Shown here: in pieces, positions 3,952 through 43,917 of the stretch
Layout: every line of letters starts with the position of its first letter
Numbering within the stretch: position 1 is the stretch's first letter
Source of the DNA: a virus
Direction: 5' to 3' (one strand)
DNA: 43,917 bases
IMG/VR virus record: IMGVR_UViG_3300035698_006880
Coordinates: 1 to 43,917 of that record
Program-made: the position numbers and the translations under genes
The notes under the pieces: model-generated
Databases searched by the model: none
What the model was told of the DNA's origin: nothing
What the model saw: only the letters and a program-made list of their open reading frames with translations

Positions 3952-5304
3952 TTATCTCCTCTCAAATCCTGAGTTTAAATCGTTTACATAATCTGGATCA
4001 TTAGAACTATCATATTCGTACACATTCCCCGTTGATGGATCAAGTAGTTTAACGCTTCCTTCAGTAGAAGCTTGTCCTTCTTGAGTGTAATCATTGATAA
4101 ACCAACTTGGATCTAGTCCATAGGTTTCTGCTATCTTTGTCCATTTATCTACAACTTCTTTTTGATTTGTCGATGACTGAGTATAAAGAGCTAAAGCTTC
4201 TTGTCTTAATTGTTGTCTTGTTTCTGGAGTCAACAAACCTTGACCAGTGACTTTTGCTGGAATGTTATAAAGCTGAGATAGTGCTCCAGCGGCTTCTTCG
4301 ACTGTGTCAAATTCGCCCTGAGTTACTCTATTTCCTGGATCTATCATCCTAACAAAAGCGTTAACTAAAGCCACATCTCCAACTGCTGTAGTTCCTGAAT
4401 TTGTGATTTTATTATACGAATCTTGAGTATCTCTAAATGATTCTGATTCTTTATCGTAATCTGTTCTAAATTTATCAGATTGTTCTTTTTGTTCTTCATT
4501 GATTCCTTGTTGACCACCATATTGACTCACAGCACCTAAATAATTTAATAAAGCATCCCGTTCTTTAGGATCAGTAGTTTGAAGTAGTGCCTCTAATATT
4601 TTATTAGTTTCTGGTAGCTCTGTTTCTTGCGGTACTTGTTCGGGTAATCCCATTGTTGTTCGTTCTTCTGGTCTTAAAAGGCTAGTTCCATCTGGTGAAT
4701 CAATGTCTTGTATTCCCTCAGATAAACCTAAAATATCCATAATACTTCTTGGTTGAACTGATCCTCGGGCAGCCGCATCTTTTTTAAGCTGTAGTTCTTC
4801 TCTACGGATTTTCATATCCTCTTCTCTATTTTTTCGTTCTTCTTGAAGAGATAGGATGTCCATGAATTTTGAAAGCACTGCACTCATCGCATCTTGATAG
4901 CTTTTTTCTGCTGTTCCCACAGCACCACCTGATGCTTTAGCTATATCGCCAAATCCAGAAGAAACATTCCCTAAATAATTGGCTTGATCCATCGGATTAC
5001 CAGCCCCATACCAACCGTAATTTGGAAACGGACTTTGACCTTTGTAAGTTTGTTCTAGTGCTTGATCGGCAGCGAACATTTGTTTCATTGCATCTTCTCT
5101 TTGTTGTTCCCCAGACTCTACAAACCCACTATTATATAAATTTCCAGACATTTCTTTTGCTATTTCTTGACTCTGTTGATATTCGGGGGGTGTAGTTTGA
5201 GCAGGTGCTTGCATTGTTTGATCCGCAGGAGCTCCCACCAGTGAACTGATTATATTCGGGTTATCTTCTGCGTTTTGTATTTCTGTATCCCTAACTGTTG
5301 CCAT
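3952..5304 (-). CDS. Virion-associated protein, 450 aa
   Basis: Gln/Glu/Pro-rich N-terminal half with a charged coiled-coil stretch (about 150-185, LQEERKNREEDMKIRREEL). The C-terminal domain (about 280-420) carries a pattern I have seen in uncharacterised phage virion proteins: ALVNAFVRMIDPGNRVTQGE..., then GQGLLTPETRQQLRQEA, then a TYGLDPSWF motif. Function unknown; probably internal virion or capsid-associated. Its stop is one base from the start of the next gene. Confidence 0.7.
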   Translation of the reverse strand: MATVRDTEIQNAEDNPNIISSLVGAPADQTMQAPAQTTPPEYQQSQEIAKEMSGNLYNSGFVESGEQQREDAMKQMFAADQALEQTYKGQSPFPNYGWYGAGNPMDQANYLGNVSSGFGDIAKASGGAVGTAEKSYQDAMSAVLSKFMDILSLQEERKNREEDMKIRREELQLKKDAAARGSVQPRSIMDILGLSEGIQDIDSPDGTSLLRPEERTTMGLPEQVPQETELPETNKILEALLQTTDPKERDALLNYLGAVSQYGGQQGINEEQKEQSDKFRTDYDKESESFRDTQDSYNKITNSGTTAVGDVALVNAFVRMIDPGNRVTQGEFDTVEEAAGALSQLYNIPAKVTGQGLLTPETRQQLRQEALALYTQSSTNQKEVVDKWTKIAETYGLDPSWFINDYTQEGQASTEGSVKLLDPSTGNVYEYDSSNDPDYVNDLNSGFERR

Positions 5305-22624: not shown

Positions 22625-23788
22625 TTAATCTGCTGTTTTATTAATATAGTTATTATATCTTTTCCTTATAACATCAACATATTTAGGATCTAATTCCATC
22701 ATATAACAAGTTCTATCTGTTTGTTCACAAGCTATTAGTGTAGTTCCAGTACCACCAAATAAATCAATTACTGACTTACAAAAATCCATCTTCTTAATAA
22801 TCCAAACTGGAAATGCAACTGGAAATCCTGCCTTATGTACTTTTGCGTAATCATTTCCAGAGTTATTTTCCGTTTCAATAACATTTGGATACTTACCTTG
22901 CCAACTACAAGGAAAGCCCCTTGACTTATTATCCTTAGAAAAAGCAAATACATATTCCCACTTTGTACTAAATGTACCTGGATTTATGTGTGGTGGAGCA
23001 ATAGACTTATTCCATACCAAAATATCTTTTATATAATCACGCATTTGTGTTTGAAAATCTATTAAAGCAATTTTATTGCTCTCTAAAATACCAAGATTAA
23101 CAAATGAAAATGTAGAATACTCAAGTGAGTTCAATGTAGTTGCAACTAAAAATGAAACATATTCTAATTCTGATTTGTTGTCTCCATCATTTTCATAAAA
23201 ATTACCTCGTATATTTTTGCCTGCATTATATGGCGGTGATGTGAAACTAATATCAACCTTCTTCCCGTCCATTAACTTCTCCACATCCTCGATATTGGTT
23301 GCGTCTCCGCACATTAATCTATGCCTACCTAACTCATATACTTCACCCAACTTACTATCTGATTCACCCTCTGCTACTGGAGGTGCTTCATCTTCCTCAA
23401 CTTTTTTATATTTATCCAATAACTCCTCAATACTAGTTAGTTTCCCTAGGTCTACCTTATAATCTCCTAAATCTATATCGGGAATGCTCATAATTAACTC
23501 AGTTAGTTTGTCTTCATCGTAGTAACCAGCTCTATCGTTATCAGCTAAAGCATATTTTAATTTCTCTTCATCCGTTGGAGCAACAACAACGCTTGTTGGC
23601 ACATCTTTTATCCCTAATTCTCTACAAGCTACCAATCTCATATTGCCCCCAAGTACAGTGCCGTCATCAGTAATTATGAATGGTTTAAATACACCCAATT
23701 CCTTAATTAAATTCTTTAATCGTTCAACCCCTTCAGGTTTAATCCCTCGAGGATTCTTCTTCCAGTTCTTTAACTTGCTGATATTCAT
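22625..23788 (-). CDS. ParB-like domain fused to DNA methyltransferase
   Basis: 387 aa. Residues 1-100 are ParB/sulfiredoxin-like (KKNPRGIKPEGVERLKNLI, then DGTVLGGNMRLVACRELG). Residues ~150-387 are an amino-methyltransferase with catalytic TSPPY at 183-187 preceding the AdoMet-binding FGGTG at 344-348, the order of beta-type N4-cytosine/N6-adenine enzymes. No partner restriction gene is seen, so it probably protects phage DNA or marks it. This fusion is common near phage terminase genes. Ribosome site AAGGA before ATG 23788. Confidence 0.85.
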   Translation of the reverse strand: MNISKLKNWKKNPRGIKPEGVERLKNLIKELGVFKPFIITDDGTVLGGNMRLVACRELGIKDVPTSVVVAPTDEEKLKYALADNDRAGYYDEDKLTELIMSIPDIDLGDYKVDLGKLTSIEELLDKYKKVEEDEAPPVAEGESDSKLGEVYELGRHRLMCGDATNIEDVEKLMDGKKVDISFTSPPYNAGKNIRGNFYENDGDNKSELEYVSFLVATTLNSLEYSTFSFVNLGILESNKIALIDFQTQMRDYIKDILVWNKSIAPPHINPGTFSTKWEYVFAFSKDNKSRGFPCSWQGKYPNVIETENNSGNDYAKVHKAGFPVAFPVWIIKKMDFCKSVIDLFGGTGTTLIACEQTDRTCYMMELDPKYVDVIRKRYNNYINKTAD

Positions 23789-29946: not shown

Positions 29947-30812
29947 AGCCCGTGATATTCATTAACTTTATTAACGTATTTCAAAAATGACTCAGCTTCT
30001 ATTCCCATATCCTCTAGCAACCCAAAAACCCTATCTTCTATAGATGGTCTTATTTGCATTAACCAATACCACGCCAAGTGCCTTAGTATTTCTTGTTGTG
30101 GTTGGTTTTTAATATAGTCAAAGTATGTTTTCTTATCTCCTTGTAATTTAGTAGTTAAAAGATAGGGAATCGTACTTCCTGCCCTAACATGATAATAGCC
30201 TAAGTTTTTACCCTTCTCTGTTGGTTCTTGATTGAAGTATATACTTGTTTTGTCTTCTTCTATTTCGTAAGGTTTTAATCCATCATTTAACATTGCCTCT
30301 GTTAATTTGCCTAATGTTTCATGTTCGGGCATATTTGGCCCCCACTCTACGTCTAAATAGTTCATTAAGGTTTCTTTTTTAGCTGCAAACCAATAAGGAC
30401 AAAACTTATTCCCACCATTTAGCTTGTCGGTTTTGTAAGTTCCACATGAGTCATAAATAGAAACTACGTCAAAATCGTTAAGTTTATCAAAAGTGTTCTT
30501 AATTACTCCTTTTTTATATACAACCATATCATTGTCCATAAATAAAACGTGTGATTCGGCAACTTCTGGCAAGATTTGTTTGTAAGCATCGTAATAACGA
30601 AGACTAGGGTTTGTATTCATTATCTTAATTTTTTTATTCTTTCTTATTCTTGTGTGAAAATTCCAATTAGAGTCTAATAAATACAATCTGTCTACTTCTT
30701 CTCCCCAAATCTCTCTAAAATTCTGATAAAAAAAGACCGATAGTGCATTAAAATACTTATGCACATACATTGGGCAATAATTATGAAAGGCTACGATTAC
30801 AGCGTTAGACAT
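29943..30812 (-). CDS. GT-A glycosyltransferase with DND motif
   Basis: 289 aa. Metal-site VLFMDNDMVVYKKG (DND 93-95), upstream YYDAYKQILPEV, and a C-terminal half with YYHVRAGSTIPYLL. Resembles GT8/GT2-like glycosyltransferases. Substrates unknown. Overlaps the epimerase by 8 nt. Confidence 0.7.
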   Translation of the reverse strand: MSNAVIVAFHNYCPMYVHKYFNALSVFFYQNFREIWGEEVDRLYLLDSNWNFHTRIRKNKKIKIMNTNPSLRYYDAYKQILPEVAESHVLFMDNDMVVYKKGVIKNTFDKLNDFDVVSIYDSCGTYKTDKLNGGNKFCPYWFAAKKETLMNYLDVEWGPNMPEHETLGKLTEAMLNDGLKPYEIEEDKTSIYFNQEPTEKGKNLGYYHVRAGSTIPYLLTTKLQGDKKTYFDYIKNQPQQEILRHLAWYWLMQIRPSIEDRVFGLLEDMGIEAESFLKYVNKVNEYHGL

Positions 30813-31881
30813 ATTCTTTCACCATGCTTCTGATACCCTCTTCAAAGGAGATTTTAGGCTCCCATTCGAGAATATCTTTAATTTTACTAATGCTAGAAAT
30901 ATAAACATCTTGGTCTGCTGGTCTTTTGTCTTCAAATTTAAGATCACACTTCTTACCTGTTAACTCTTTAATTAATTGAATTGCTTCTAAAAGTGAATAA
31001 GTGTTTTCTGGACCACCACCCAAAGTAAATATTTCACCATTACATTTGTCAATATTCTCTAGGGCATCAAGATAGGCTCTAGCCGTATCTCTACCGTCTA
31101 AAACGTCTCTAACTTGCTTACCCGTACCAAATAAAGTGATCGGTTCTTCTTTTAAAATTCTTCTAATAAACCAATCTACCCATGCTTGATTCTCTACACC
31201 CTTTTGAAATAGCCCGTAGATACAAGACATTCTGAATATAACTACAGGAATCCCAAATTGAAGATGATACTCTTGAGTGTAAAGCTCACCGCAAAGTTTA
31301 CTTATCCCATACATACTGTGAGAATGTTTACAGAACCCTGACACTGGATAATTCTCATTAATTGCTTGGGGAGTAACGTCTAATATTGTTTTATCAGACT
31401 CAACGTCAACTCCAACAATTTCTCTTAGAAAATTAGCAGAGTTTACATTCTCCCACACAAGCCTATTATTCTTAGCTCTCGTGGGCAACTCATTCATCTT
31501 ATCGCTATAAACTTTGTTGGTGCTTGCGTACAAATAAGGCACATCTAATTTCCTAGCTAAATTCAAACTGTTTACTGTGCCTCCCGTATTCGTCTCAAAA
31601 TCATAAACTGGAAATTCAATTGATTTTAATACTGAGGGGTTGGCAGCAAAGTTAATAATTGCATCTACTTTTGGTATCTTTTCAAAGTCTCCCGCTTTTC
31701 TCACATCTCCCCAAACAAACTTATATTTATCCTTATACTTCTCTTCCATGTGGGTTAGGTTATTCTTAACTTCATTTCTTGAAAGATTATCAAAAGCCAC
31801 AACATTATGACCTCGATTAATCGCTTCTATGGCTAAATTTGTTGAAATGAAGCCACATCCGCCTGTTAATAAAATCTTCAT
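30805..31881 (-). CDS. CDP-paratose 2-epimerase-like nucleotide-sugar enzyme
   Basis: 358 aa extended short-chain dehydrogenase. The NAD motif is TGGCGFIS (6-13; third Gly replaced by Ser), with FDNLSR acidic end, TNKVY (121-125), catalytic YGISK (Tyr191/Lys195) and FRMSCIYG (216-223), the last two near the family-typical EEPITLFGTGKQVRDVL. TNKVY together with FRMSCIYG is characteristic of RfbE-type CDP-paratose 2-epimerases. It probably makes or interconverts a deoxysugar nucleotide used by the neighbouring glycosyltransferases. The exact substrate cannot be fixed. Confidence 0.75.
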   Translation of the reverse strand: MKILLTGGCGFISTNLAIEAINRGHNVVAFDNLSRNEVKNNLTHMEEKYKDKYKFVWGDVRKAGDFEKIPKVDAIINFAANPSVLKSIEFPVYDFETNTGGTVNSLNLARKLDVPYLYASTNKVYSDKMNELPTRAKNNRLVWENVNSANFLREIVGVDVESDKTILDVTPQAINENYPVSGFCKHSHSMYGISKLCGELYTQEYHLQFGIPVVIFRMSCIYGLFQKGVENQAWVDWFIRRILKEEPITLFGTGKQVRDVLDGRDTARAYLDALENIDKCNGEIFTLGGGPENTYSLLEAIQLIKELTGKKCDLKFEDKRPADQDVYISSISKIKDILEWEPKISFEEGIRSMVKEYV

Positions 31882-32525
31882 AAAAGATCCTCCTTATGTT
31901 TCTTATATGCCCCCCAAAGCCCTCGGGGTGTTGGAAATGCAAATGGTTTTAATTCATAACCTAATATATATCTATTTTTAATTATTGAAGGGAAAGCCCC
32001 AAAAGGCCAATGGGCAAACTCGGGATGATCTGGATTCTTGTTACCCTGACTGCACCCACGATGTAAGTCATGGATAAAAATGAACCCACCTGGTTTTAAA
32101 TTATCATAGAATTTTACAAGCTCACGGTAACGTAAGTTTGGTTCTGAATCAAGGAAAATGATGTCATATTTATCTTTAGTCTCAAAATCTAATGATGAAA
32201 TTTGATTTACAGTAATCCAATCTTGTAGCCCCAATTTTGTCCATCTTTCCTTACTTGTTTGTATATGTTGAAGCTCGATCTCTATGGTAGTTAAATGTCC
32301 AAATCCATTTTCTTTTAATCCGACCGCCATATAAGCAGAACTCCAGCCCTTATAAGTTCCAGTTTCTAAAATTCTTTCTGGCTTCATTACTCTGACTAAA
32401 CCATAAAGAAATTCTCCACACTCACATTCAATAGATCCATCGTTATGTCTAGAGTATTTAGATCCAACACATTCTTCTGTAATTCCCTCGCTTGGATCTA
32501 ATTCTAAAAATTTATCTGTAATCAT
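31878..32525 (-). CDS. O-methyltransferase (Methyltransf_24-like)
   Basis: 215 aa, class I AdoMet fold: motif I ILETGTYKGWSSAYMAVG (52-69), acidic TTIEIE, and DIIFLDSEP as metal/catalytic strand, then LKPGGFIFIHDLHRG. Typical of small-molecule or sugar O-methyltransferases. Between the epimerase and an HNH gene, so glycan methylation is plausible. Confidence 0.7.
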   Translation of the reverse strand: MITDKFLELDPSEGITEECVGSKYSRHNDGSIECECGEFLYGLVRVMKPERILETGTYKGWSSAYMAVGLKENGFGHLTTIEIELQHIQTSKERWTKLGLQDWITVNQISSLDFETKDKYDIIFLDSEPNLRYRELVKFYDNLKPGGFIFIHDLHRGCSQGNKNPDHPEFAHWPFGAFPSIIKNRYILGYELKPFAFPTPRGLWGAYKKHKEDLL

Positions 32526-33094
32526 AACTTTTTTCTAATTTCGGGATATAGTTTGGTTGCTAATCCCCAAAATTCTTTGTCATATTTACAATGACATTTT
32601 CTACATAATGCTATCCAATCATTAACATCTCTAATATATTGATGGCTTTTATTCGCCCATTCAATTTTATTAGTTGTACTACACTTTTCGCATTTAATTG
32701 GCTTTCCCTTTCTACTTCTAACCCAATCGTGCAGAGCATGATACCCAACATCTCCAGCCTTCCAGTTATAGCTTTTATCTCCATAATGGCCTTTTGATAT
32801 TTTTTCCCTAGTCTCATTAGAGTGTTTAGAGCCCATCTTAGCTTTGCTAATATTTTTTTTCCATGCATTAGAAAAAGGGGGTCTTTTTTTTCCTTTTCTA
32901 ACTAAGCTCATTTTTTTCTTAGTTTCTTCTGAAAGTGGTCTACCTTTTAATGATTGGCTTATCTTCTTTTTAGTTTCTTCAGAAAGGTGCTTACCAAGCC
33001 AATACTTATATCCTTTATGTCCTTTTTTAAACTCTGTCTTTGGACTGTTATGTTTACCTTTTAAAGATCCACTTAATTTTATATTTTTTACCAT
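32522..33094 (-). CDS. HNH endonuclease with NUMOD3 repeats
   Basis: 190 aa. Several NUMOD3-type repeats (LSEETKKKISQSLKGRPLSEETKKKMS...) followed by a zinc/HNH core CEKCSTTNKIEWANKSHQYIRDVNDWIALCRKCHCKYD. It has its own -10 box (33101-33106) 6 nt before the ATG, so it can be expressed leaderless. It couples to the O-methyltransferase by ATGA. Confidence 0.8.
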   Translation of the reverse strand: MVKNIKLSGSLKGKHNSPKTEFKKGHKGYKYWLGKHLSEETKKKISQSLKGRPLSEETKKKMSLVRKGKKRPPFSNAWKKNISKAKMGSKHSNETREKISKGHYGDKSYNWKAGDVGYHALHDWVRSRKGKPIKCEKCSTTNKIEWANKSHQYIRDVNDWIALCRKCHCKYDKEFWGLATKLYPEIRKKL

Positions 33095-33100
33095 TCTTCT

Positions 33101-33106
33101 ATTATA
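33101..33106 (-). promoter_or_regulatory. -10 box of the HNH gene (leaderless)
   Basis: TATAAT on the minus strand, overlapping the stop of the upstream glycosyltransferase and ending 6 nt before ATG 33094. No good -35 was found. Confidence 0.45.
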
Positions 33107-34123
33107 CTAAATCTTGTTAAAGAATGCACGCCATTCTGAAAGAATTGTGTTTTTTCCAAACACTTCTTCAGCTTTAGCCCGTGATTGAATACTAATTTTT
33201 TTAGCTAACTTTTCATCATTAAATAGTAATTTAATATAAATCTTTGCCTCCTCAACATTCTTGGCAATAAAGCCAGTTTCTCCATGATCTATTAAATTAG
33301 GAATTTCGTAAATTTGATAAGAAGGGAATCCACTCATCCAAATATCGCCTCCAAAAGCTACAACAGGTATTCCAGTCATCCACGCCTCAATAAAGCTTAA
33401 GCTGTAAGATGCGGGCCATGTCCCTGCGTAAAGAAATGCTCTGTTGTCTCTTAAAATTCCCTTTTGATTATCGTAGCTCACTTGTCCGCCGTTTAAATTC
33501 CCCAAGTCTGCATTGCCATTGCCGTATACCTTAGCTTGAAAACCACTCATGGCTTCTATAATTGGTTTATAATAACAGCTTGCTCCTCTTCCTCTTAATG
33601 ATTGAGTAAAATTGATTACTTGTTTGTTTGCTCCAACCCATCCGATATATTCATTTGGATCTTTGTAAAATCTAATCATTGCACTTGCCCCAATATAATC
33701 TGGCATCTTCTGTTCCATAGGTGAGTATCTAACAACCTTCAAACCCTGATCGTATAAGTGTTTCATCTGTCTCTCATTTTCAGGACTAGATTGCCCAATG
33801 GTTCTCCAAATTACTTTCTTGTGTTTAATATTAGGCCAGTTCTGCATAAGGATTTCAACATCTCCTCTGCCTCCCATTACAAAAATTACATCAAATTGCT
33901 CGATTATATTTTTAGACATTTCTGTTTTGGGAAATTTACTTGCTATCTCAATTAGGCCAGGATAGTGTTTAAGCCCTGGAATACCTGGTCTGTGTAGTTG
34001 TGGATTTCCAACAGGATCACTATAAGCTCCTTGATAAGAAAAACAGTCATACCCCATTTCGGTAAACAATTTAATCTCATCATATTCTAAAACTTGATGG
34101 ATACTAAGATATAAGATTCTCAT
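33107..34123 (-). CDS. GT-B glycosyltransferase (GT4-like)
   Basis: 338 aa. C-terminal Rossmann domain with NRAFLYAGTWPASYSLSFIEAWMTGIPVVAFGGDIW (about 236-270) and a later LIDHGETGFIAKNVEEAKIYIK, the GT4 donor-site layout. N-terminal half is the acceptor domain. Sugar unknown. Confidence 0.75.
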   Translation of the reverse strand: MRILYLSIHQVLEYDEIKLFTEMGYDCFSYQGAYSDPVGNPQLHRPGIPGLKHYPGLIEIASKFPKTEMSKNIIEQFDVIFVMGGRGDVEILMQNWPNIKHKKVIWRTIGQSSPENERQMKHLYDQGLKVVRYSPMEQKMPDYIGASAMIRFYKDPNEYIGWVGANKQVINFTQSLRGRGASCYYKPIIEAMSGFQAKVYGNGNADLGNLNGGQVSYDNQKGILRDNRAFLYAGTWPASYSLSFIEAWMTGIPVVAFGGDIWMSGFPSYQIYEIPNLIDHGETGFIAKNVEEAKIYIKLLFNDEKLAKKISIQSRAKAEEVFGKNTILSEWRAFFNKI

Positions 34124-35043
34124 AAAAGCATTTTCTGAGCCAACCTTTTTCTGGAAATTTCTATATATTCAGAGTTTAATTCTATACCTATATAATTTCT
34201 ACCTAGTTTTTGAGCCACTAATCCAGTAGTACCAGCACCAAAGAATGGATCTAAAACCACGCCATCTTTGGGACACCCAGCTTTAATTGGAGTTTGACAT
34301 AGCTTCTCTGGATAGGTGGCAAAGTGGGCTTCCTTAAATGATTTGGTTGTTATAGACCAGACAGTTCTTTTGTTACGATTAGGGTATTTTTTACCAGTTA
34401 ATTTTCTAAAATTTTGTTTTATATATTTATCTGCATATTCATTTTCTCTTCTTCCTCCAGTTCTTTGCCTTTTTCCTGTATAAGACTCTGGATCAATAGA
34501 TGGTTCTGTTTGCTGCTCAAAACAATACTTCTTATTTTTACTAAAGAAAAACAGTTTCTCAAAGTCTACCGTAAACCTATCTTTAACACTTGAAGGCATA
34601 CAATTAGGCTTGTGCCAGATAATCTCGTTTCTTAATATCCAGCCACGATTAGTCATTTCTATAGCAAAACGAGAGGGGATTTGAAGTAAACACTTACTTG
34701 GCATTTTACTAGCTCTAGCAGTACCATTTGGCATTACATAAACCTGTTTAGAGTTTTTTACATACTCTCCTACATCAACATTTTTACAAGTACCATTACC
34801 ACTACCACCATAAGTATCACCCATATTCACCCAGCAAGTACCTTCTTTTTTTAATACTCTTTTAACTTCATCAAAAATACTACAAAGTTTATTTATATAT
34901 TCTTGGAATGTTGGTTCTAATCCTAATTGTCCATCTACCCCATAATCTCTTAATGCCCAATAAGGAGGGGAAGTCATACACATATCTACTGATTCAGATT
35001 CTATGGTTTTAAGTTGAGATAATGCGTCACCGTGCAATATCAT
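34120..35043 (-). CDS. Orphan DNA amino-methyltransferase
   Basis: 307 aa. Catalytic TSPPYW (24-29) near the N-terminus and AdoMet motif DPFFGAGTTGLVA (265-277) near the C-terminus: beta-class N4-cytosine/N6-adenine order. The phrase TSPPYWALRDYGVDGQLG is typical of phage and plasmid orphan methyltransferases. No restriction partner, so self-protection or DNA marking. Overlaps both glycosyltransferase neighbours by 4 nt. Confidence 0.85.
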   Translation of the reverse strand: MILHGDALSQLKTIESESVDMCMTSPPYWALRDYGVDGQLGLEPTFQEYINKLCSIFDEVKRVLKKEGTCWVNMGDTYGGSGNGTCKNVDVGEYVKNSKQVYVMPNGTARASKMPSKCLLQIPSRFAIEMTNRGWILRNEIIWHKPNCMPSSVKDRFTVDFEKLFFFSKNKKYCFEQQTEPSIDPESYTGKRQRTGGRRENEYADKYIKQNFRKLTGKKYPNRNKRTVWSITTKSFKEAHFATYPEKLCQTPIKAGCPKDGVVLDPFFGAGTTGLVAQKLGRNYIGIELNSEYIEISRKRLAQKMLL

Positions 35044-36173
35044 AAATTTTGATAAATATTTTCTAATCTTTTTAACATTTTATTACCTACTGCCTCATAA
35101 GAAAAAGTGTTCTGAGCCAGTGTAAAAGCTTTTGTTGCTTTTTCTTGTGCTAGTGGCTGATGTTCATAAACATAACGCATATTTCTTTTTAAATCACCAA
35201 CATCTACCTGTGCCCATTTTTGATCGTTAGTATACCAACGCATCATTTCCATATTAAAAACTGGAATCATGTCATATCTTACCAAATAAGCCTCTTCATC
35301 AGTTAAGTATTCATTTACTCCCCCAAGATTGGTTGATATTACTGGCTTATTCATCACCATTGCTTCAACAATGGGAATAGACCAACCCTCTCCTCTATGG
35401 CTACTTACAAAACAATTACCAGTAGCATGAAGACGGATCAGGTCCGCCTTGCTTAATAGTTCAAATGAAATATATATAGGGGGAAAATAGTCTAAGTCTA
35501 AGTCTTCTTTTAGTTTATTAATGTCGTAAGTGATTTGATTCAGCTCTTGTGGATCAAAAAACTCCTTATAAGTCTTAATCAATAGTCCAACATTGTCTCG
35601 TCTTCCAAATTCAGTTAGATAGGATTTTAAAAGTGATCTCCAATCCTTTCTTTCTATCCATTGGAATATTGAGTAAAACATATATGAATGAACAACTGCG
35701 TTCCCTTTCCATCTTATCCTTTTGGGTTTGCCAGTCATATCTATATCTATGGCTTCTGGAATTACGTAAATTGGTCTTTTAACCCCAGAATTTTTAAATA
35801 CTTTTTTATGATATTCAGTTGAAGTCCAAATCTCGTCCATGAGATTAGCTGACCATACAAACGCTTCGTGTAGTTTATCTGTCTGCCACATCAGCCTGCC
35901 GATATGGTATTTACAAGGTTCTAAATAACGAAGGTACATATCTGGCGTACAGTGCAAGATTTTAATATCATAGTTTTTATCTAGTCCATGATATTTCTGT
36001 GCTGTTTTTAGTCCCCTACCATAATCGGCCCGCTTACTAAGAGCTCCTGTAAGTTGAGTAATAAGATCAACTTCGGCATTGTTAAGTGCCATAATATCGT
36101 TACGATTGGCCTCCCCATATCCACTGTAGTCGGCCCAATTCCCCGCATAACAAACGCTATATTTTGATGACAT
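35040..36173 (-). CDS. GT-B glycosyltransferase (GT4-like)
   Basis: 377 aa. N-terminal YAGNWADYSGYGEANRNDI loop typical of GT4 acceptor/glycine region; donor domain with CFVSSHRGEGWSIPIVEAMVMNKPVISTNLGGVNEYL (about 270-306). Clear retaining GT-B enzyme. First glycosyltransferase of the cassette after the small 83-aa gene. Confidence 0.8.
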   Translation of the reverse strand: MSSKYSVCYAGNWADYSGYGEANRNDIMALNNAEVDLITQLTGALSKRADYGRGLKTAQKYHGLDKNYDIKILHCTPDMYLRYLEPCKYHIGRLMWQTDKLHEAFVWSANLMDEIWTSTEYHKKVFKNSGVKRPIYVIPEAIDIDMTGKPKRIRWKGNAVVHSYMFYSIFQWIERKDWRSLLKSYLTEFGRRDNVGLLIKTYKEFFDPQELNQITYDINKLKEDLDLDYFPPIYISFELLSKADLIRLHATGNCFVSSHRGEGWSIPIVEAMVMNKPVISTNLGGVNEYLTDEEAYLVRYDMIPVFNMEMMRWYTNDQKWAQVDVGDLKRNMRYVYEHQPLAQEKATKAFTLAQNTFSYEAVGNKMLKRLENIYQNL

Positions 36174-38394: not shown

Positions 38395-38759
38395 TATATT
38401 GATTTACTAATAATATAACAAATATTTTCTTTGTGATTAAATAATACAAAATTTGCATAACAAATTGATCCATCGCTATTGTTTTCTGAAATAGCTACTC
38501 TGTATGGCCACAATTCTTCTTTGTATCTAATATTTTTTTCTTTGTAATAATAAGTCGTTTTGTTTCCTTTTCTTGTAATAACTTTATTTGGTTCCTCTGT
38601 AAGTTTACTTATTACACTGTTAGCATTTACAAACTTTTCAAACCCCACCTTAACTTGATCCCATTTATTAGAATACTTTGATTTTTTAATACGAATATTT
38701 TTTTGACTAACATCTTCATCTTTAATTTTTCCCTGTAAAATTTGAGATATTGATTTCAT
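38394..38759 (-). CDS. Unrecognised protein, 121 aa
   Basis: MKSISQILQGKIKDEDVSQKNIRIKKSKYSNKW..., a basic N-terminus and a beta-rich C-terminal half. Ribosome site AAGGAG lies in the end of the replication-initiator gene. Possibly a replication accessory protein, by position only. Confidence 0.55.
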   Translation of the reverse strand: MKSISQILQGKIKDEDVSQKNIRIKKSKYSNKWDQVKVGFEKFVNANSVISKLTEEPNKVITRKGNKTTYYYKEKNIRYKEELWPYRVAISENNSDGSICYANFVLFNHKENICYIISKSI

Positions 38760-38760
38760 T

Positions 38761-39450
38761 TTAAACTCCTTGTCTTTCTCTTAATAATTGACTAACACTT
38801 ATTTTTGGAACTTCTGAATATTTCTGTTTACACTTTTCCCTATCAGACCTTACCCAATTTCTCAACGCTGCCGTATAGTCTTTATATTTTTTACCCTTAG
38901 AAATGGTCCAGTCAATCATCTTTGCGTAAGTTTCTTTTACAAAACTAACTGAAACGTTAAATTGTTCAGCAATTTCTATAAAGTTTTTTTCGTTTGGCTT
39001 CTTTCTGATTTCTGATTTATGATTTCTGATTTCTGATTTATGGTTTATAGTACCTATCCAATGGGTATTGATAGGGGTATTTATACCTCTATTTTTAATG
39101 TTAATATACCAATCTTTAATAGGGTCACTCATTTCTTTGATAAGTTTTGCTTTAGCAATCTCATTTTTATCTCCAGTATACTTTTCATACCGACTTGCAT
39201 TTACCAAATAAACATAATTATTCTTAAAAAGAATTTTCCCCGTAGACTGTATTTTATCCTTAAACGATCCAATAATACCCCTATCCACACCAGTATCAAA
39301 AATTATCTCTCTTTCTGTAATCTCGTAGCAATGAATAATATTCACTCTTTCGTTTGTTAAAAAATAAGCAAATAATAATTTTTCAGTTGGAGTTAGATCA
39401 ACAAAGAAACTGTCTTTCCAAATCTTTGTGTGAATAATTCGAGTTTTCAT
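38761..39450 (-). CDS. Replication initiator-like protein (winged helix N-terminus)
   Basis: 229 aa. N-terminal winged-helix pattern HTKIWKDSFFVDLTPTEKLLFAYFLTNERVN...YEITEREI, a basic linker that includes the repeated HKSEIRN/HKSEIRK, and a C-terminal helical domain ending in ...ALRNWVRSDREKCKQ. This resembles DnaD/phage O-type origin-binding proteins. The repeated linker is encoded by tandem 21-bp repeats that could be origin iterons. Start ATG 39450; its leader is strongly structured. Confidence 0.6.
   Translation of the reverse strand: MKTRIIHTKIWKDSFFVDLTPTEKLLFAYFLTNERVNIIHCYEITEREIIFDTGVDRGIIGSFKDKIQSTGKILFKNNYVYLVNASRYEKYTGDKNEIAKAKLIKEMSDPIKDWYINIKNRGINTPINTHWIGTINHKSEIRNHKSEIRKKPNEKNFIEIAEQFNVSVSFVKETYAKMIDWTISKGKKYKDYTAALRNWVRSDREKCKQKYSEVPKISVSQLLRERQGV
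39002..39043. repeat. Tandem 21-bp repeats inside the initiator gene, candidate origin
   Basis: Two copies of a 21-bp unit (39002-39022 and 39023-39043) that differ only at the last base. Each unit contains TTTCTGA twice. The position inside the initiator-like gene recalls lambda O, where the origin iterons lie within the initiator coding region. Candidate initiator-binding sites. Confidence 0.5.
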
Positions 39451-39562
39451 GGTCCCCCAATATTAAGGTCGGCGGGCAACCGACCATCGGAAGAAGAACG
39501 GATACCCGCCTACGTTAATAATCAATTGATTTTTTGAAGAAATTGTTCCGATGGATTTACCA
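39451..39562 (-). ncRNA. Structured 5-prime leader of the initiator gene
   Basis: About 110 nt between the expected start (~39563) and ATG 39450. It can form three competing stems: TTCCGATGG/CCATCGGAA (39546-39554 with 39484-39492), GGCGGG/CCCGCC (39471-39476 with 39505-39510) and GGTCGG/CCGACC (39467-39472 with 39480-39485). The start region GACCAT can also pair with ATGGTC upstream. The overlapping pairings suggest a pseudoknot or an on/off switch controlling initiation of the replication gene. Confidence 0.5.
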
Positions 39563-39569
39563 TAATTTC

Positions 39570-39598
39570 AATATGTACTATTTTACGAGTTTTTGCAA
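39570..39598 (-). promoter_or_regulatory. Leftward promoter of the replication block
   Basis: TTGCAA (39598-39593), 17-nt spacer, CATATT (39575-39570). It precedes the structured leader of the initiator gene. Confidence 0.5.
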
Positions 39599-39610
39599 AC
39601 GAAGCTTTAT

Positions 39611-39641
39611 AATACAAACAGCTCCTAAGAGTAAGGAGCTG
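39611..39641 (-). terminator. Terminator of the amidoligase operon
   Basis: A perfect 8-bp stem CAGCTCCT/AGGAGCTG (39619-39641, 7-nt loop), followed on the minus strand by TTTGTATT. It lies ~55 nt after the 100-aa gene and separates the amidoligase operon from the replication promoter. Confidence 0.65.
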
Positions 39642-39696
39642 AATGTGAGGCATCATGTATACAAGACTTACCTCATTATATATTAAACATGAAGTT

Positions 39697-39999
39697 TTAA
39701 ATACCCAACTTAGTCTTGTTTCTGTAGACTAATCTAATAGCAGTTCTCGAGGCTCTTTGACGAACTCCTGACGGTCTACTTCCTCCATCGAAAGCACTTA
39801 ATGGAGAATCTGGCTCGTTGATATAGTAAGATAAAGCAGCCAGATCTTTTTCGTGAATTGGAGCGTTTAAATTATCTGTGCGACTCCTAGCTCCAAGCGT
39901 CTTTTTATTAGCCTCATACTGTGCGTACATTTTGGCTAATTCTTCCGCTGACATAAATCTTTCTAAAACAGCAAGTGAAAATACTTTTTGTGATGACAT
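39697..39999 (-). CDS. 100-aa protein at the end of the amidoligase operon
   Basis: MSSQKVFSLAVLERFMSAEELAKMYAQYE..., helical N-terminal half; the second half (ALSYYINEPDSPLSAFDGGSRPSGVRQRASRTAIRLVYRNKTK) is Arg/Ser-rich. Ribosome site AAAGGAGGTGAATA resembles that of the capsid gene. Position directly after the amidotransferase suggests a shared pathway, possibly as a substrate or adaptor. No family recognised. Confidence 0.55.
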   Translation of the reverse strand: MSSQKVFSLAVLERFMSAEELAKMYAQYEANKKTLGARSRTDNLNAPIHEKDLAALSYYINEPDSPLSAFDGGSRPSGVRQRASRTAIRLVYRNKTKLGI

Positions 40000-41190
40000 T
40001 TAATATTCACCTCCTTTCCTTGAATTTTGTTTAGCAACTGTCCATTTATGGGTTTGTTCAAGAATAATTTGATCCAACATTGGCACCGAGTAATAAAAGT
40101 AAGTTGGTTCGTCAACATAAGTCTCGTTATGACAACGATTACAAATCGGTCTTTCTGAGCTCTTAGAAATCCAGGCTGGAGCAATAATATATCCTCTTTC
40201 ATTTATAAATAGTTTTCCGCATAGCTCACAACCACAGAAAATCCTACAATAAATATCAATATCAGTTAAAAAGATAGGTTCATCAACCTCTTCTACAATT
40301 TCTTCTACAACCTGCAAATCTCGACCATTATCAATTACTTCTTCAACAGGTAATCTCTCTTGTTCCTTGTAGTTTGGATCTTTTATCCACTTCATTCTTT
40401 TACGATTCCACGTCCAGCCCTTTTCACCATAATGACTTACAAAGTTCTTTGTTACAGTTCTTGTTTTTGCCACCTGATACTCTTTAAAGTTAACAGGAGT
40501 ACTATTAAATTTTAAAGAATCTTTCAAAACATAGACAAAATCTTCATTGGGTTCAAACATAAAATAATCATCATGCCTTAAAATTGCTCTTAGTAAAATT
40601 CTTAAAGCAATTTCTGTAGAGGCCCAAAAGACGGTCCCCAATTCCTCAACCCTAGCAAAGTGCAGAGGATTTGTGTGTCTTACAAAATACATCTCCCTAG
40701 AATTAGGCAAATGATTCCATGTAATTGCAAAATGTCCTCTTAACTTAGCAAAGCTTCTTTTGTAATTATTCCTATATTTATTTAAGAGTTCAAAAATTAC
40801 CTCACTATCTACTTCTACCTTGCTATTTATTTGTAGGTAATTTGATACCCAACCATTATGAGCACCCACCACAACCCCCTTAGTAAATGGATGAGCGTTT
40901 TTATGGGAAACTACACCAGTAGTAGCAAGGCGAGTGTGACCAATAATAACGTCTGGTCTTTCATAAAGCAGACTAAGAAACTTAGGATTACTAACTAGAT
41001 CTGTAGCTGTCCACGCTCTCTTAAATGTCTTTACATACTTACGCCCTTTATTTCCAATACAAGCAATACCAGCAGACTGATCTCCTCTTTCCTGCATGGC
41101 TATAGCCAACCCCTCGATGATGGCATTTCTCTTTCTTATCTCTCCCCGATTCAAGTTCTTATTAGAATAGCAACCAAATAAACCGCACAG
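40000..41190 (-). CDS. Class II glutamine amidotransferase with CUG start
   Basis: 396 aa if started at CTG 41190. The product then begins (M)-CGLFGCYSNKN, placing the N-terminal nucleophile Cys at position 2 as in all class II GATases. Other family landmarks: QERGDQSAGIA, GHTRLATTG (substrate-binding Arg), GAHNG (oxyanion Asn/Gly) and EVDSEVIFELL (conserved Asp). A C-terminal zinc-ribbon-like CGCELCGKLF...CNRCHN follows (about 310-345). GAGAGG lies 6 nt before the CTG; an in-frame stop upstream and no ATG/GTG/TTG before the Cys leave CTG as the only sensible start. Expected to release ammonia from glutamine for a partner enzyme; the neighbouring amidoligase is the obvious partner. Confidence 0.8.
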   Translation of the reverse strand: MCGLFGCYSNKNLNRGEIRKRNAIIEGLAIAMQERGDQSAGIACIGNKGRKYVKTFKRAWTATDLVSNPKFLSLLYERPDVIIGHTRLATTGVVSHKNAHPFTKGVVVGAHNGWVSNYLQINSKVEVDSEVIFELLNKYRNNYKRSFAKLRGHFAITWNHLPNSREMYFVRHTNPLHFARVEELGTVFWASTEIALRILLRAILRHDDYFMFEPNEDFVYVLKDSLKFNSTPVNFKEYQVAKTRTVTKNFVSHYGEKGWTWNRKRMKWIKDPNYKEQERLPVEEVIDNGRDLQVVEEIVEEVDEPIFLTDIDIYCRIFCGCELCGKLFINERGYIIAPAWISKSSERPICNRCHNETYVDEPTYFYYSVPMLDQIILEQTHKWTVAKQNSRKGGEY

Positions 41191-41241
41191 ATTTACCTCT
41201 CTTTCTTTTGATTAGTTAATAATGTAAACAATCCACACATT

Positions 41242-42723
41242 TTAGAACGTCCTTCCTGAAATTCTTCTCTCTCGCTGTCCTAGGCTTACTTCTTTTCTTC
41301 TAGTTTGATCTCTTTTAAAGCCATTAATCCTTGAAGTTATATATCTACTGACAGGATCTTTTAACTCTAGGGTTTTAAAAACTTTATCTAGTGTTTCATC
41401 ATTAAAATCAGCTTGAGCAATTGACTTAATTACATCATCGTCATATTTTTCAACAGCATAATCAACAACAGAGGTAATAAGAGAGGCCCAATTAAAAATC
41501 TTTTTTGGATCAATTGTTCCTGCGTGATGTCTAAACTCAACCGTTTTACGATAATATATAGAGTGAATGTTAAGACCATAATATCTAGTATCATCTTGGT
41601 GGTGACGCATCCTGCTTGCCACACCACTAGAAGAACTTGATTTATACCACTTTTTTTCAAAGTCATAATCATACTTTTTAATCTTCATTACTCCATCAAA
41701 ACTATCAAAGCCATACCCTTTAGTTAGGGGATAACAATAACGATTTCCTCTCCTAGATAGTGGATTCATAGCAAAAAACATTTCCTCTATGGCAAATACC
41801 GTTCTAAATAGGTTAACTCTAAGTTGATGTTTTGCAAACAAATCTTTAGCAGCAATATGAACGTGTAGGCCACAAGATGAGTTAATCCGAAACCCTGCTT
41901 CAGTTAAGGTTTTGCAAACTTTCTTTATATGATTTTCAAACGCCAAGCCTTTTCTTGGACAAGTCAAAACTTCAGTTGGTTCTTTTCCCGATAAACTTGC
42001 ATCATCTTTAACTCCACAACCTAAGTTTTTCCTATCATTAACATCTAGGAATTTATATCTACTTCCCCCAACACACTCTAGCTCACAGCCCACAAGTCTA
42101 TCTGTGGTGATTAACTTCCCTTTAGTTACTGTAATTCTAGGAGAGGCAAAGTTAATTGTGGCCTCACATCTATGTCCATCGCTTTTACAATAAGGACAGG
42201 TATTATAATCACAAAACCTACAACGAGTCTGCTTATTTTTAAAAAAGTACTTACTACAATAGTCGCAATGTCTTAGCTCGTTAGCACAGGAACCGCAGAG
42301 TTTATGTTCTACCTTATCTATGGTGTAAGATTTTATGCTGACGCAATAATTCTTACAAAGAGTGCATTGTTTAATATCTACGCCAACAAGACACTTTGGA
42401 CAATAGTGACGAAACGAATAACCACTGAAAACTTTTTTACAAAGACTCCTTTTGACAATCTCACTACACTTTTTACACCTTCTATAAAGCTGAGTCGCAC
42501 AATGATTACAAAATTTAGTATGAGGAAGTTTTGTCTCCCAAGCCTTTATATGAATACGATAACCTCTCTCACATTTATCACATTTTTTGGACAAATGACT
42601 CTCTGGTTTTCCCATATGAAGACACTCTCCAGGAAACACAGACTTCCAATCCACTCCACCAGACTCATCGTGATACTCCACGGAAGGAGCAGACATAACA
42701 ATCTCCTCTACATTAATCGGCAT
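41242..42723 (-). CDS. Zinc-ribbon amidoligase (COOH-NH2 ligase family)
   Basis: 493 aa. Residues ~34-186 contain about five zinc-ribbon/treble-clef pairs (CDKC...FCNHC, CKKC...YCPKC, CTLC...CGSC, CDYC...CRFC, CPYC...). Residues ~205-425 match the putative amidoligase family related to glutamine synthetase and gamma-glutamylcysteine ligase: GCELE (212-216), CGVKDDASL (236-243), EVLTCP (251-256), the metal-site GLHVHI (285-290) and TVEFRHHAGTIDPKKIFNW (394-412). Such enzymes join carboxyl and amino groups using ATP. Upstream ribosome site AAGGAGG. Substrate unknown; ribbons suggest a nucleic-acid or protein partner. Confidence 0.8.
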   Translation of the reverse strand: MPINVEEIVMSAPSVEYHDESGGVDWKSVFPGECLHMGKPESHLSKKCDKCERGYRIHIKAWETKLPHTKFCNHCATQLYRRCKKCSEIVKRSLCKKVFSGYSFRHYCPKCLVGVDIKQCTLCKNYCVSIKSYTIDKVEHKLCGSCANELRHCDYCSKYFFKNKQTRCRFCDYNTCPYCKSDGHRCEATINFASPRITVTKGKLITTDRLVGCELECVGGSRYKFLDVNDRKNLGCGVKDDASLSGKEPTEVLTCPRKGLAFENHIKKVCKTLTEAGFRINSSCGLHVHIAAKDLFAKHQLRVNLFRTVFAIEEMFFAMNPLSRRGNRYCYPLTKGYGFDSFDGVMKIKKYDYDFEKKWYKSSSSSGVASRMRHHQDDTRYYGLNIHSIYYRKTVEFRHHAGTIDPKKIFNWASLITSVVDYAVEKYDDDVIKSIAQADFNDETLDKVFKTLELKDPVSRYITSRINGFKRDQTRRKEVSLGQRERRISGRTF

Positions 42724-42826
42724 ACCTAACCTCCTTCTCTATCTCTTCGAGGTTTGAAAGTTCTTGTTCGTAATTAATTTGGGGGAGAATAAAATCTAAG
42801 AAATCTATTGCCTCAATAGTTGTCAT
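42713..42826 (-). CDS. 37-aa acidic peptide heading the amidoligase operon
   Basis: MTTIEAIDFLDFILPQINYEQELSN..., rich in Glu/Asp and helical, ending EEIEKEVRYAD. Strong ribosome site AAGGAGGCATC before ATG 42826; overlaps the amidoligase start by 11 nt. Its place and acidic side chains make it a candidate peptide substrate or regulator of the ligase (inference). Confidence 0.5.
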   Translation of the reverse strand: MTTIEAIDFLDFILPQINYEQELSNLEEIEKEVRYAD

Positions 42827-42854
42827 GATGCCTCCTTGAAATTGATAATAGCTT

Positions 42855-42883
42855 ACTTTACATAAATTACACCACCCTGTCAA
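42855..42883 (-). promoter_or_regulatory. Leftward promoter of the amidoligase operon
   Basis: Consensus TTGACA (42883-42878), 17-nt spacer, TAAAGT (42860-42855); a start near 42848 leaves a ~20-nt leader with AAGGAGG. The -35 touches operator-like copy D. Confidence 0.65.
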
Positions 42884-42895
42884 TAGACACTTTAC
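42882..42895 (+). promoter_or_regulatory. Operator-like motif, copy D, between divergent promoters
   Basis: AATAGACACTTTAC on the plus strand. It overlaps both the leftward -35 and the rightward -35 (TTTACA 42891-42896), so one bound regulator could control both directions. Confidence 0.6.
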
Positions 42896-42919
42896 AGCTA
42901 TTAGTTTTTGATGTATAGT
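42891..42919 (+). promoter_or_regulatory. Rightward promoter of the 42929 gene
   Basis: TTTACA (42891-42896), 17-nt spacer, TATAGT (42914-42919), ending 9 nt before ATG 42929, so the mRNA is leaderless or nearly so. Confidence 0.6.
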
Positions 42920-42928
42920 AAACACAAT

Positions 42929-43150
42929 ATGAAACAACTACCTAAATTCACCGATACACACTGGGATTGGTTAGAAGAATACTTAGAAGAAGTTAAAATT
43001 GAACTTAGGAGAGGTGGTAAGACTTATAAACTCCCAGGTAAAATTCTTGTTGATATTTTAAAAGGTATGAAAAAAAGCTATCGCAAACAATCCAAACACC
43101 ATCAAACATTTGGCACTAAGATTAATAAAAATGGAATAACCAATTTATGA
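42929..43150 (+). CDS. Small basic protein, 73 aa
   Basis: MKQLPKFTDTHWDWLEEYLEEVKIELRR..., helical N-terminal part then Lys-rich. ATG 42929 chosen because the promoter -10 lies immediately before it. Divergent from the amidoligase operon with a shared operator-like site, a typical regulator position, but no DNA-binding domain is recognised. The frame continues past its TGA into an HNH-like fragment. Confidence 0.5.
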   Translation: MKQLPKFTDTHWDWLEEYLEEVKIELRRGGKTYKLPGKILVDILKGMKKSYRKQSKHHQTFGTKINKNGITNL

Positions 43151-43306
43151 AAGAGATATGAATGGTCAAGAAAAAACCATATTATAAGTAGAAAAAGGGC
43201 TGATTGGCAACAACTATGCAGGGGATGTCATATGAGATATGATTATAAAAACGGACTAAGAGCACTACCGTATTCTAAAAAGAAACATGCCAAGAAAACC
43301 ATCTAA
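43151..43306 (+). pseudogene. HNH-like fragment in frame after a TGA
   Basis: After the TGA at 43148-43150 the same frame continues with YEWSRKNHIISRKRADWQQLCRGCHMRYDYKNG, the second half of an HNH/zinc endonuclease, to TAA 43304. There is no start codon before the HNH motif and the upstream Cys pair is missing. It is most simply a broken HNH gene joined to the 73-aa frame. Confidence 0.45.
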
Positions 43307-43664
43307 AAAAACTCTCAAAGCAAAATGTGATCGTTTATTTTCACAATTAATAAGATCTATAGAAAAATGCGAGTGGTGCAATAGAGAGAATCTTAGACTA
43401 GAAGCTGCACATATTTTTAGTAGGAGATACCTTAATACTAGGTGGTCAAAATTAAACTGTATAAGTTTATGCTCGGCATGTCATCGTAAGGCCCATGATA
43501 AGCCAGTAGAATTTGTTGAGTGGCTTAGGGAGCATCTAGGAATCGAAGTCTACGAAGAATTACGCAGAGAAAGTCAAAAAATAAAGAAGATGACCGAATC
43601 TGATTATTTAGAATTAATAGAAAAATTAAAGGAAAAAAATGAAACTAGAGAAAATATGTTTTAG
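43287..43664 (+). CDS. NinG/HNH-like nuclease
   Basis: 125 aa: basic N-terminus, CEWCNRENLRLEAAHIFSRRYLNTRWSKLNCISLCSACHRKAHD (about 28-71) with the two Cys pairs and HNH-type His residues, then VEFVEWLREHLG and a charged helix. This is the layout of NinG/Rap-type or free HNH nucleases involved in phage recombination or packaging. Overlaps the following gene by 26 nt. Confidence 0.75.
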   Translation: MPRKPSKKTLKAKCDRLFSQLIRSIEKCEWCNRENLRLEAAHIFSRRYLNTRWSKLNCISLCSACHRKAHDKPVEFVEWLREHLGIEVYEELRRESQKIKKMTESDYLELIEKLKEKNETRENMF

Positions 43665-43821
43665 TTGTCCGCCAGAAGTACAAAAAGCTTGTGCTAATGC
43701 CCTGCCTCAACTAGGTGGTACTGTGTGTGATATTTTAAAAGAAGGAGACATTACTTTAAAACAAAGAGATGGCCATGTAACTGTAAGCGATGGTGAAGTT
43801 ACTTTAACAGTGAGGGATTAA
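43639..43821 (+). CDS. Small protein, 60 aa
   Basis: MKLEKICFSCPPEVQKACANALPQLGGTVCDILKEGDITLKQRDGHVTVSD..., ending in a short beta-rich stretch. Unknown. Ribosome site AAAGGAAA upstream. Confidence 0.55.
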   Translation: MKLEKICFSCPPEVQKACANALPQLGGTVCDILKEGDITLKQRDGHVTVSDGEVTLTVRD

Positions 43822-43917
43822 CTTCCCAACCTCACATTCCTAATCGTAAATTCAACTCCATGAAATTCTCTATCTACTGTTCCATCAGGTTTTAATTCCC
43901 ACTCGTTAATTGGAGGA
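43818..43917 (-). CDS. C-terminal end of a leftward gene
   Basis: The last 32 residues of a gene entering from the right edge (..NEWELKPDGTVDREFHGVEFTIRNVRLGS), converging on and overlapping the 60-aa plus-strand gene by 4 nt. Too short to identify. Confidence 0.5.
   Translation of the reverse strand, partial: PPINEWELKPDGTVDREFHGVEFTIRNVRLGS

Follow-up and report, generated by a model that had tools for sequence, protein, structure and literature searches.

Phages in which an amidoligase gene neighbours a gene for a class II glutamine amidotransferase (GATase) are already known: phages of the LUZ24, phiEco32 and RIO-1 types hold the pair within a larger cassette. The neighbouring genes were seen in LUZ24-like phages (tf, UFV-P2, BroderSalsa), Zobellviridae, crAss-like cr108_1, Arthrobacter phage Ottawa and others, and in these phages the pair is usually accompanied by a COOH-NH2 ligase, an ATP-grasp protein and a gamma-glutamyl cyclotransferase (GGCT). 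The cassette has been predicted to modify peptidoglycan against superinfection (PMC5498523, PMC10580990 and PMC11945000, citing Iyer 2009 and Hardies 2013); the literature that we searched yielded no experimental test of the function of the phage pair and no assayed phage amidoligase. Here, we analyze such a pair in the virus record IMGVR_UViG_3300035698_006880, which was studied at its full length of 43,917 nucleotides (43.9 kb, 36% GC; hereafter, the window) and may be a fragment. The amidoligase of the window carries predicted N-terminal zinc ribbons and its GATase a C-terminal pair of CxxC motifs, and this zinc-equipped two-enzyme form seems to be a recurrent, undescribed subtype, present in uncultured phages and in a mobile DNA element.

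The two genes lie in a leftward operon at the right end of the window (39697-42826). All four open reading frames (ORFs) proposed for this operon in the initial annotation, which was made from the sequence alone, were found on the minus strand with tight junctions: the amidoligase start is overlapped by the stop codon of the 37-aa peptide, and the start of the 100-aa protein abuts the GATase stop. The sole wider spacing is a gap of ~50 nt located 5' of the GATase gene, which houses a 15-codon ORF. The genes, in order of transcription, are as follows.

42716..42826, minus strand, acidic peptide of 37 aa encoded at the head of the operon, with its own ribosome-binding site AGGAGGCATC-ATG
41242..42723, minus strand, zinc-ribbon amidoligase of 493 aa, with a PF12224 match and a CxxC array
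40000..41190, minus strand, class II (N-terminal nucleophile, Ntn) glutamine amidotransferase, with a PF13522 match, a probable CTG start and a Cys2 nucleophile
39697..39999, minus strand, 100-aa orphan protein, after the GATase

Like the cassette of phiEco32-, LUZ24- and RIO-1-type phages, the window has its Amidoligase_2 and class II GATase genes side by side, as in tf_21/tf_22 and in BroderSalsa (in UFV-P2, the pair is ORF23/ORF25, with one gene in between), and several GATases of the cassette phages likewise end in a CxxC pair. However, COOH-NH2 ligase, ATP-grasp and GGCT are not detectable in the window: custom profiles gave nothing at E<=1 in its six-frame translation, a search that distant homologues could escape. 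Another distinction is the N-terminal zinc-ribbon array, which is found in none of the isolate-phage amidoligases that we translated. Genes 65-66 of Arthrobacter phage Ottawa are an adjacent amidoligase and GATase in the same order, with ATP-grasp, COOH-NH2 ligase and GGCT unannotated within 5 kb, but neither of these proteins has zinc ribbons. Seven further phage regions are, by annotation, mostly of the cassette type or of an amidoligase plus GGCT type. The initial annotation had called the stand-alone phage setting unusual, which was overstated: many phages carry such a pair, and its role in peptidoglycan modification has been predicted in print; what is unusual is the presence of the zinc ribbons, a real feature of a subtype, without the other cassette enzymes, and not the pair itself.

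The amidoligase matches the Pfam family Amidoligase_2 (PF12224; E=3.3e-20, 73.4 bits versus a cut-off of 22, residues 264-418) and phrog_2443 of the PHROGs collection (E=1e-25). Nine CxxC motifs in residues 48-179 correspond to about four to five ribbons, in agreement with the initial claim of ~5 zinc ribbons fused to an amidoligase core, and they are followed by a glutamine synthetase/glutamylcysteine synthetase (GCS)-like ligase domain at residues ~207-485. The motifs GCELE, GLHVHI and TVEFRHHAGT, listed in the same annotation, are present and fall in family-conserved columns. Across an alignment of 46 sequences, the residues E214, E216, D241, S243, E251, H287, H289, R380, N385, E396 and R398 are invariant, and all are retained in the window, so that its amidoligase shows the conserved pattern of the family (ExE, DxS, E, HxH, R-Y-x3-N, EFR). 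We take these residues to resemble the metal, ATP and phosphate residues of glutamine synthetase (ExE, E, HxH, R, ExR).

The AlphaFold model of the amidoligase (predicted local distance difference test, pLDDT, 78.8) was compared to known structures in a fold search. The matches include 1tt4 (Z 14.3), YbdK (1r8g, Z 14.1), a plant glutamate-cysteine ligase (Z 13.1) and many glutamine synthetases (Z ~13); at Z 13-14, the root mean square deviation is 3.8-4.7 across ~230-250 residues, and the matches as a whole (Z 12-14) cover residues ~200-490. Phage amidoligases from BFVD match the model by fold as well; when the ligase alignment was searched against PDB profiles, no amidoligase was among the matches listed. 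Judging by profiles and the predicted structure, the assignment of the 493-aa protein to Amidoligase_2, with a glutamine synthetase/GCS fold, holds. We rejected an interpretation of the CxxC array as LIM domains, since the zinc-finger/LIM proteins in the PDB profile search were matched via the CxxC region and the LIM matches were weak and composition-driven. In none of the ORFs examined are an amidoligase and a GATase domain fused.

YbdK and plant glutamate-cysteine ligase (GCS2 family) share the fold of the window's amidoligase at an identity of 12-13% and 10%, respectively; to our knowledge, they have neither zinc ribbons nor a GATase partner. YbdK, the nearest solved fold, is a glutamate-cysteine ligase-like enzyme, which would fit a metabolic role, either synthesis of a small amide or gamma-glutamyl metabolite or nitrogen scavenging, with ribbons that are structural. 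Non-zinc amidoligases are sometimes located near GGCT (17/157 loci), a gene that was not detected in the window, and the zinc array of the ligase together with the matching GATase ribbons favours docking to a macromolecule; we thus regard a metabolic role as improbable.

The GATase matches PF13522 (E=4.5e-13, 49.8 bits versus a cut-off of 27) and the GlmS/PurF class, with profile matches down to 6e-23 in the PDB profile search and fold matches down to 7e-14. If translation starts at the CTG codon at 41190, which is preceded by a good Shine-Dalgarno sequence, AAGAGAGG, the second residue is a cysteine, and the residues invariant in the family alignment are C2, R87 and H111-N112-G113. The TTG start at 41154 chosen by the ORF finder drops the nucleophile, which is encoded only upstream of that TTG; the catalytic Cys2 of the initial annotation is therefore present with the CTG start and absent with the TTG start. 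Among relatives whose start was readable, the start codon is ATG in 40/41 and ATT in 1/41 (a Klebsiella phage). We also considered a programmed -1 frameshift from MCGLFTLL into the GATase; no canonical slippery heptamer was seen by eye and the second Cys would be buried, hence the CTG start is preferred and, from the sequence, is likely. The C-terminal CxxC pair is at residues 321 and 350, and similar pairs occur in other phage GATases. The assignment to class II (Ntn) amidotransferases of the GlmS/PurF class holds, on the evidence of profiles and the modelled fold. It should be noted that, in Klebsiella phage KpnP_VR7901 (L007 4965-5027), the deposited GATase start (locus position 5028) excludes the catalytic Cys, and an ATT start is likely; mis-annotation may thus affect some of the phage GATases that use rare start codons.

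For both enzymes, profiles, folds and conserved catalytic sets agree with the families named in the initial annotation, which had listed three outcomes as contrary to it: a different fold of the amidoligase, loss of the catalytic Glu/His set, and lack of co-conservation of the two genes. The glutamine synthetase/GCS fold was matched, the catalytic residues are invariant in the alignment and retained in the window, and the pair recurs in other phages; with all three checks favourable, none of these outcomes was observed.

To place the zinc-ribbon amidoligase among its relatives, we used the best 80 amidoligase loci from IMG/VR, fetched by an alignment query led by the window's zinc-type protein and truncated at contig ends. 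Searching viral contigs directly with the proteins of the window produced no close relatives; the alignment query alone retrieved the loci. We define the zinc-type subtype, for this analysis, as at least three CxxC motifs N-terminal to the amidoligase and an adjacent GATase with a C-terminal CxxC; the window belongs to it, with nine CxxC motifs, an adjacent GATase and the GATase CxxC motifs at 321 and 350. The N-terminal zinc-ribbon array was found in 22/80 loci. A GATase was present in 21/22 zinc-type loci versus 21/58 others (Fisher p 8e-7), and it lay within 600 nt of 35/37 zinc-type amidoligases, compared to 29/83 other amidoligases. At least two C-terminal CxxC motifs were found in 22/24 GATases of zinc-type loci versus 7/55 elsewhere. 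All of the top 14 matches to the window's GATase are GATases of the zinc type, and its identity to that of L049 is 39%. The literature searched contained no published description of a zinc-equipped amidoligase/GATase subtype, nor any linking amidoligase, LIM domain and phage.

The zinc-type modules in uncultured phages include L017, L018, L021, L023-L027, L031, L041, L049, L063, L069, L071 and L084, and further ones are L046, L061, L076 and the Manatee Spring metagenome phage MW202637. Like the window, these uncultured-phage modules have a CxxC array fused to Amidoligase_2 beside a GATase, mostly with C-terminal CxxC. With custom profiles, the cassette companions were missing from zinc-type loci except L076 (all three) and L061 (the ATP-grasp gene); these two loci link the zinc type to the cassette type. 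Many zinc-type loci are triplets, in which a conserved ~50-aa peptide is followed by zinc amidoligase A, the GATase, a 95-aa protein and zinc amidoligase B, whereas the window has a single amidoligase and unrelated small ORFs. The small proteins of the relatives are located as follows.

L017 1044-1193, L018 960-1145, L031 2523-2753 and 11 other zinc-type loci, ~50-aa LLGxCGExH peptide
L018 4222-4524, L049 4208-4486 and 13 other loci, 95-aa KRAKKNPF protein

The ~50-aa peptide has an LLGxCGExH motif and a hydrophobic tail and lies upstream of amidoligase A in 14 zinc-type loci; the members that were scanned matched no Pfam or PHROG family. The 95-aa protein, with a KRAKKNPF motif, lies between the GATase and amidoligase B of the triplets, and no convincing family match was found for it. 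A small ORF is thus located just upstream of the first amidoligase both in the window and in these 14 loci, where it forms one conserved family, as would be expected if the amidoligase modified a small co-encoded peptide in the manner of ribosomally synthesized and post-translationally modified peptides (37 aa in the window, ~50 aa in the relatives). However, the peptide of the relatives resembles a membrane peptide and is missing from the window, and the 37-aa peptide has no relatives in the loci gathered; we give such a role little credence. The 37-aa peptide had no Pfam or PHROG matches, and the 100-aa protein had no family matches in Pfam, PHROGs or PADLOC. As neither had a detectable relative among the loci gathered by that stage of the comparison, the suggestion in the initial annotation that one of them is the substrate is unsupported. 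Its suggestion of early expression likewise found no support.

We propose that the window encodes a glutamine-dependent, amide-forming pair that would act on a macromolecular carboxylate, while the zinc ribbons on both proteins would hold the partners to each other or to the target; on the sequences and models, we consider the chances for and against this proposal about equal. The GATase would hydrolyse glutamine at Cys2, yielding ammonia (or another amine), and the ATP-using amidoligase would activate the carboxylate, probably as an acyl phosphate, and then form the amide there. The ribbons, an array in the ligase and a C-terminal one in the GATase, would join both proteins and/or dock them on the target. 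This target would be a cytoplasmic macromolecule of the host, most likely a protein and possibly a cell-wall precursor. Both folds, the catalytic residue sets, the tight pairing, the recurrence of the zinc-equipped form and the undetected companions in the window are the observed basis of the proposal, from which we infer that ammonia passes between GATase and ligase, what the ribbons do and to which class the target belongs.

Several points weigh against this proposal. The C-terminal region of the GATase is modelled at a pLDDT under 50, and the low-complexity CxxC pattern could be purely structural. The zinc-type-led fetch query biases the zinc/GATase proportions. The association also lacks phylogenetic independence: on the amidoligase tree, the zinc label needs ~6 changes, at least 3 of them forced, and the supported branches provide just 3 independent pairs (sign test p about 0.5). 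The window's ligase forms a long branch that the tree does not place firmly among zinc-type proteins.

The main competing explanation is a cell-wall modification, in which the pair amidates or extends the peptide stem of a peptidoglycan precursor, excluding superinfecting phages or protecting the infected cell, while the ribbons only stabilise the complex. This is what has been predicted for the larger phage cassette, and the window encodes a glucosaminidase-family lysin and sugar-modifying genes. MurT-GatD of Staphylococcus aureus is a precedent for peptidoglycan amidation by a ligase and a glutaminase acting together, and it resembles the window's pair only in working as a two-protein, glutamine-dependent system for carboxylate amidation (PMC3267633). 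The prediction was, however, built on cassettes with the COOH-NH2 ligase, ATP-grasp and GGCT, which are not detectable in the window, and a CxxC array is not expected in an enzyme acting on lipid II. MurT has a Mur-ligase fold and GatD belongs to class I rather than class II of the amidotransferases, so that the two are unrelated to the window's proteins. We consider the cell-wall explanation possible but doubtful, and rank the peptide-substrate, counter-defence and metabolite roles below it.

The zinc-type pair is also found outside phages, in two contigs of metagenome-assembled genomes of Candidatus Omnitrophota, where the zinc-ribbon amidoligase and GATase adjoin radC and lie near TraG/VirD4-like and TraC-like genes.

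L097 5929-8215 and L102 5189-7560, Omnitrophota zinc-type pair

As in the window, the amidoligase is followed by the GATase; there are six CxxC motifs, and the alignment to the window covers the ribbons and the ligase. Unlike that of the window, this pair is borne by a conjugative element beside radC and not by a phage. A plasmid collection gave three unannotated gut records, which match the ligase domain or its neighbourhood only. The Omnitrophota setting shows that the zinc-ribbon pair is not restricted to phages and would fit a role in counter-defence or establishment, in which a host protein of defence or DNA processing would be modified on behalf of mobile elements generally; this is compatible with amidation of a macromolecule. 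There are just two related contigs, the radC neighbourhood is suggestive at most, and PADLOC gave only a marginal Cas11a match that we judged meaningless; the probability of this role appears slight. The most specific form of our proposal is a separate, so far undescribed system by which mobile elements would amidate macromolecules with two components, the ribbon arrays on both ligase and glutaminase serving to recruit a specific host protein for host takeover or the disarming of defence; we consider this form rather unlikely.

The remaining features of the operon are the following.

42855..42883, minus strand, sigma-70-like promoter candidate TTGACA-17-TAAAGT (10/12 match)
41193..41240, minus strand, 15-codon ORF MCGLFTLLTNQKKER and stop codon, upstream of the GATase in a frame different from that of the GATase
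39619..39641, minus strand, terminator-like 8-bp hairpin CAGCTCCTTA..TAGGAGCTG, then TTTGTATTAT (sequence scan)

The candidate promoter and terminator sit where the initial annotation had placed them, but sites of these kinds are not more frequent in the region than in shuffled sequence (11 versus 13.5 promoter-like and 2 versus 1.7 terminator-like sites); as candidates flanking the operon, they are plausible. The 15-codon ORF has its own AGGAAGG site, stops 2 nt short of the CTG start and resembles the GATase N-terminus (24/45 nt are the same as in the GATase start, chance ~1e-4); an old duplication scar, a leader peptide and a recoding signal are candidate explanations. An Rfam scan of 38500-43917 found no RNA elements, and a scan for tRNA genes found none. 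Elsewhere in the window there are portal, coat-protein, terminase-like and DnaD-like genes, most of them on the minus strand. Two DNA methyltransferase genes are located at 22625-23788 and 34120-35043 (minus strand), the first with a ParB-like N-terminal part. A nucleotide-sugar epimerase, a methyltransferase and two glycosyltransferase-like genes are clustered at 30805-36173 (minus strand), possibly for surface or DNA glycosylation.

Phage amidoligase/GATase pairs are widespread, yet the literature that we searched offers only predictions of their function. The zinc-equipped form cuts the problem to two proteins, and its ribbons are a putative docking part that is usable as bait for the target. 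If the most specific form of the proposal is true, protein-carboxylate amidation or gamma-linked ligation would be a modification not previously shown for phages. The occurrence in a conjugative element suggests a general function in mobile elements and not a phage-virion or lysis function.

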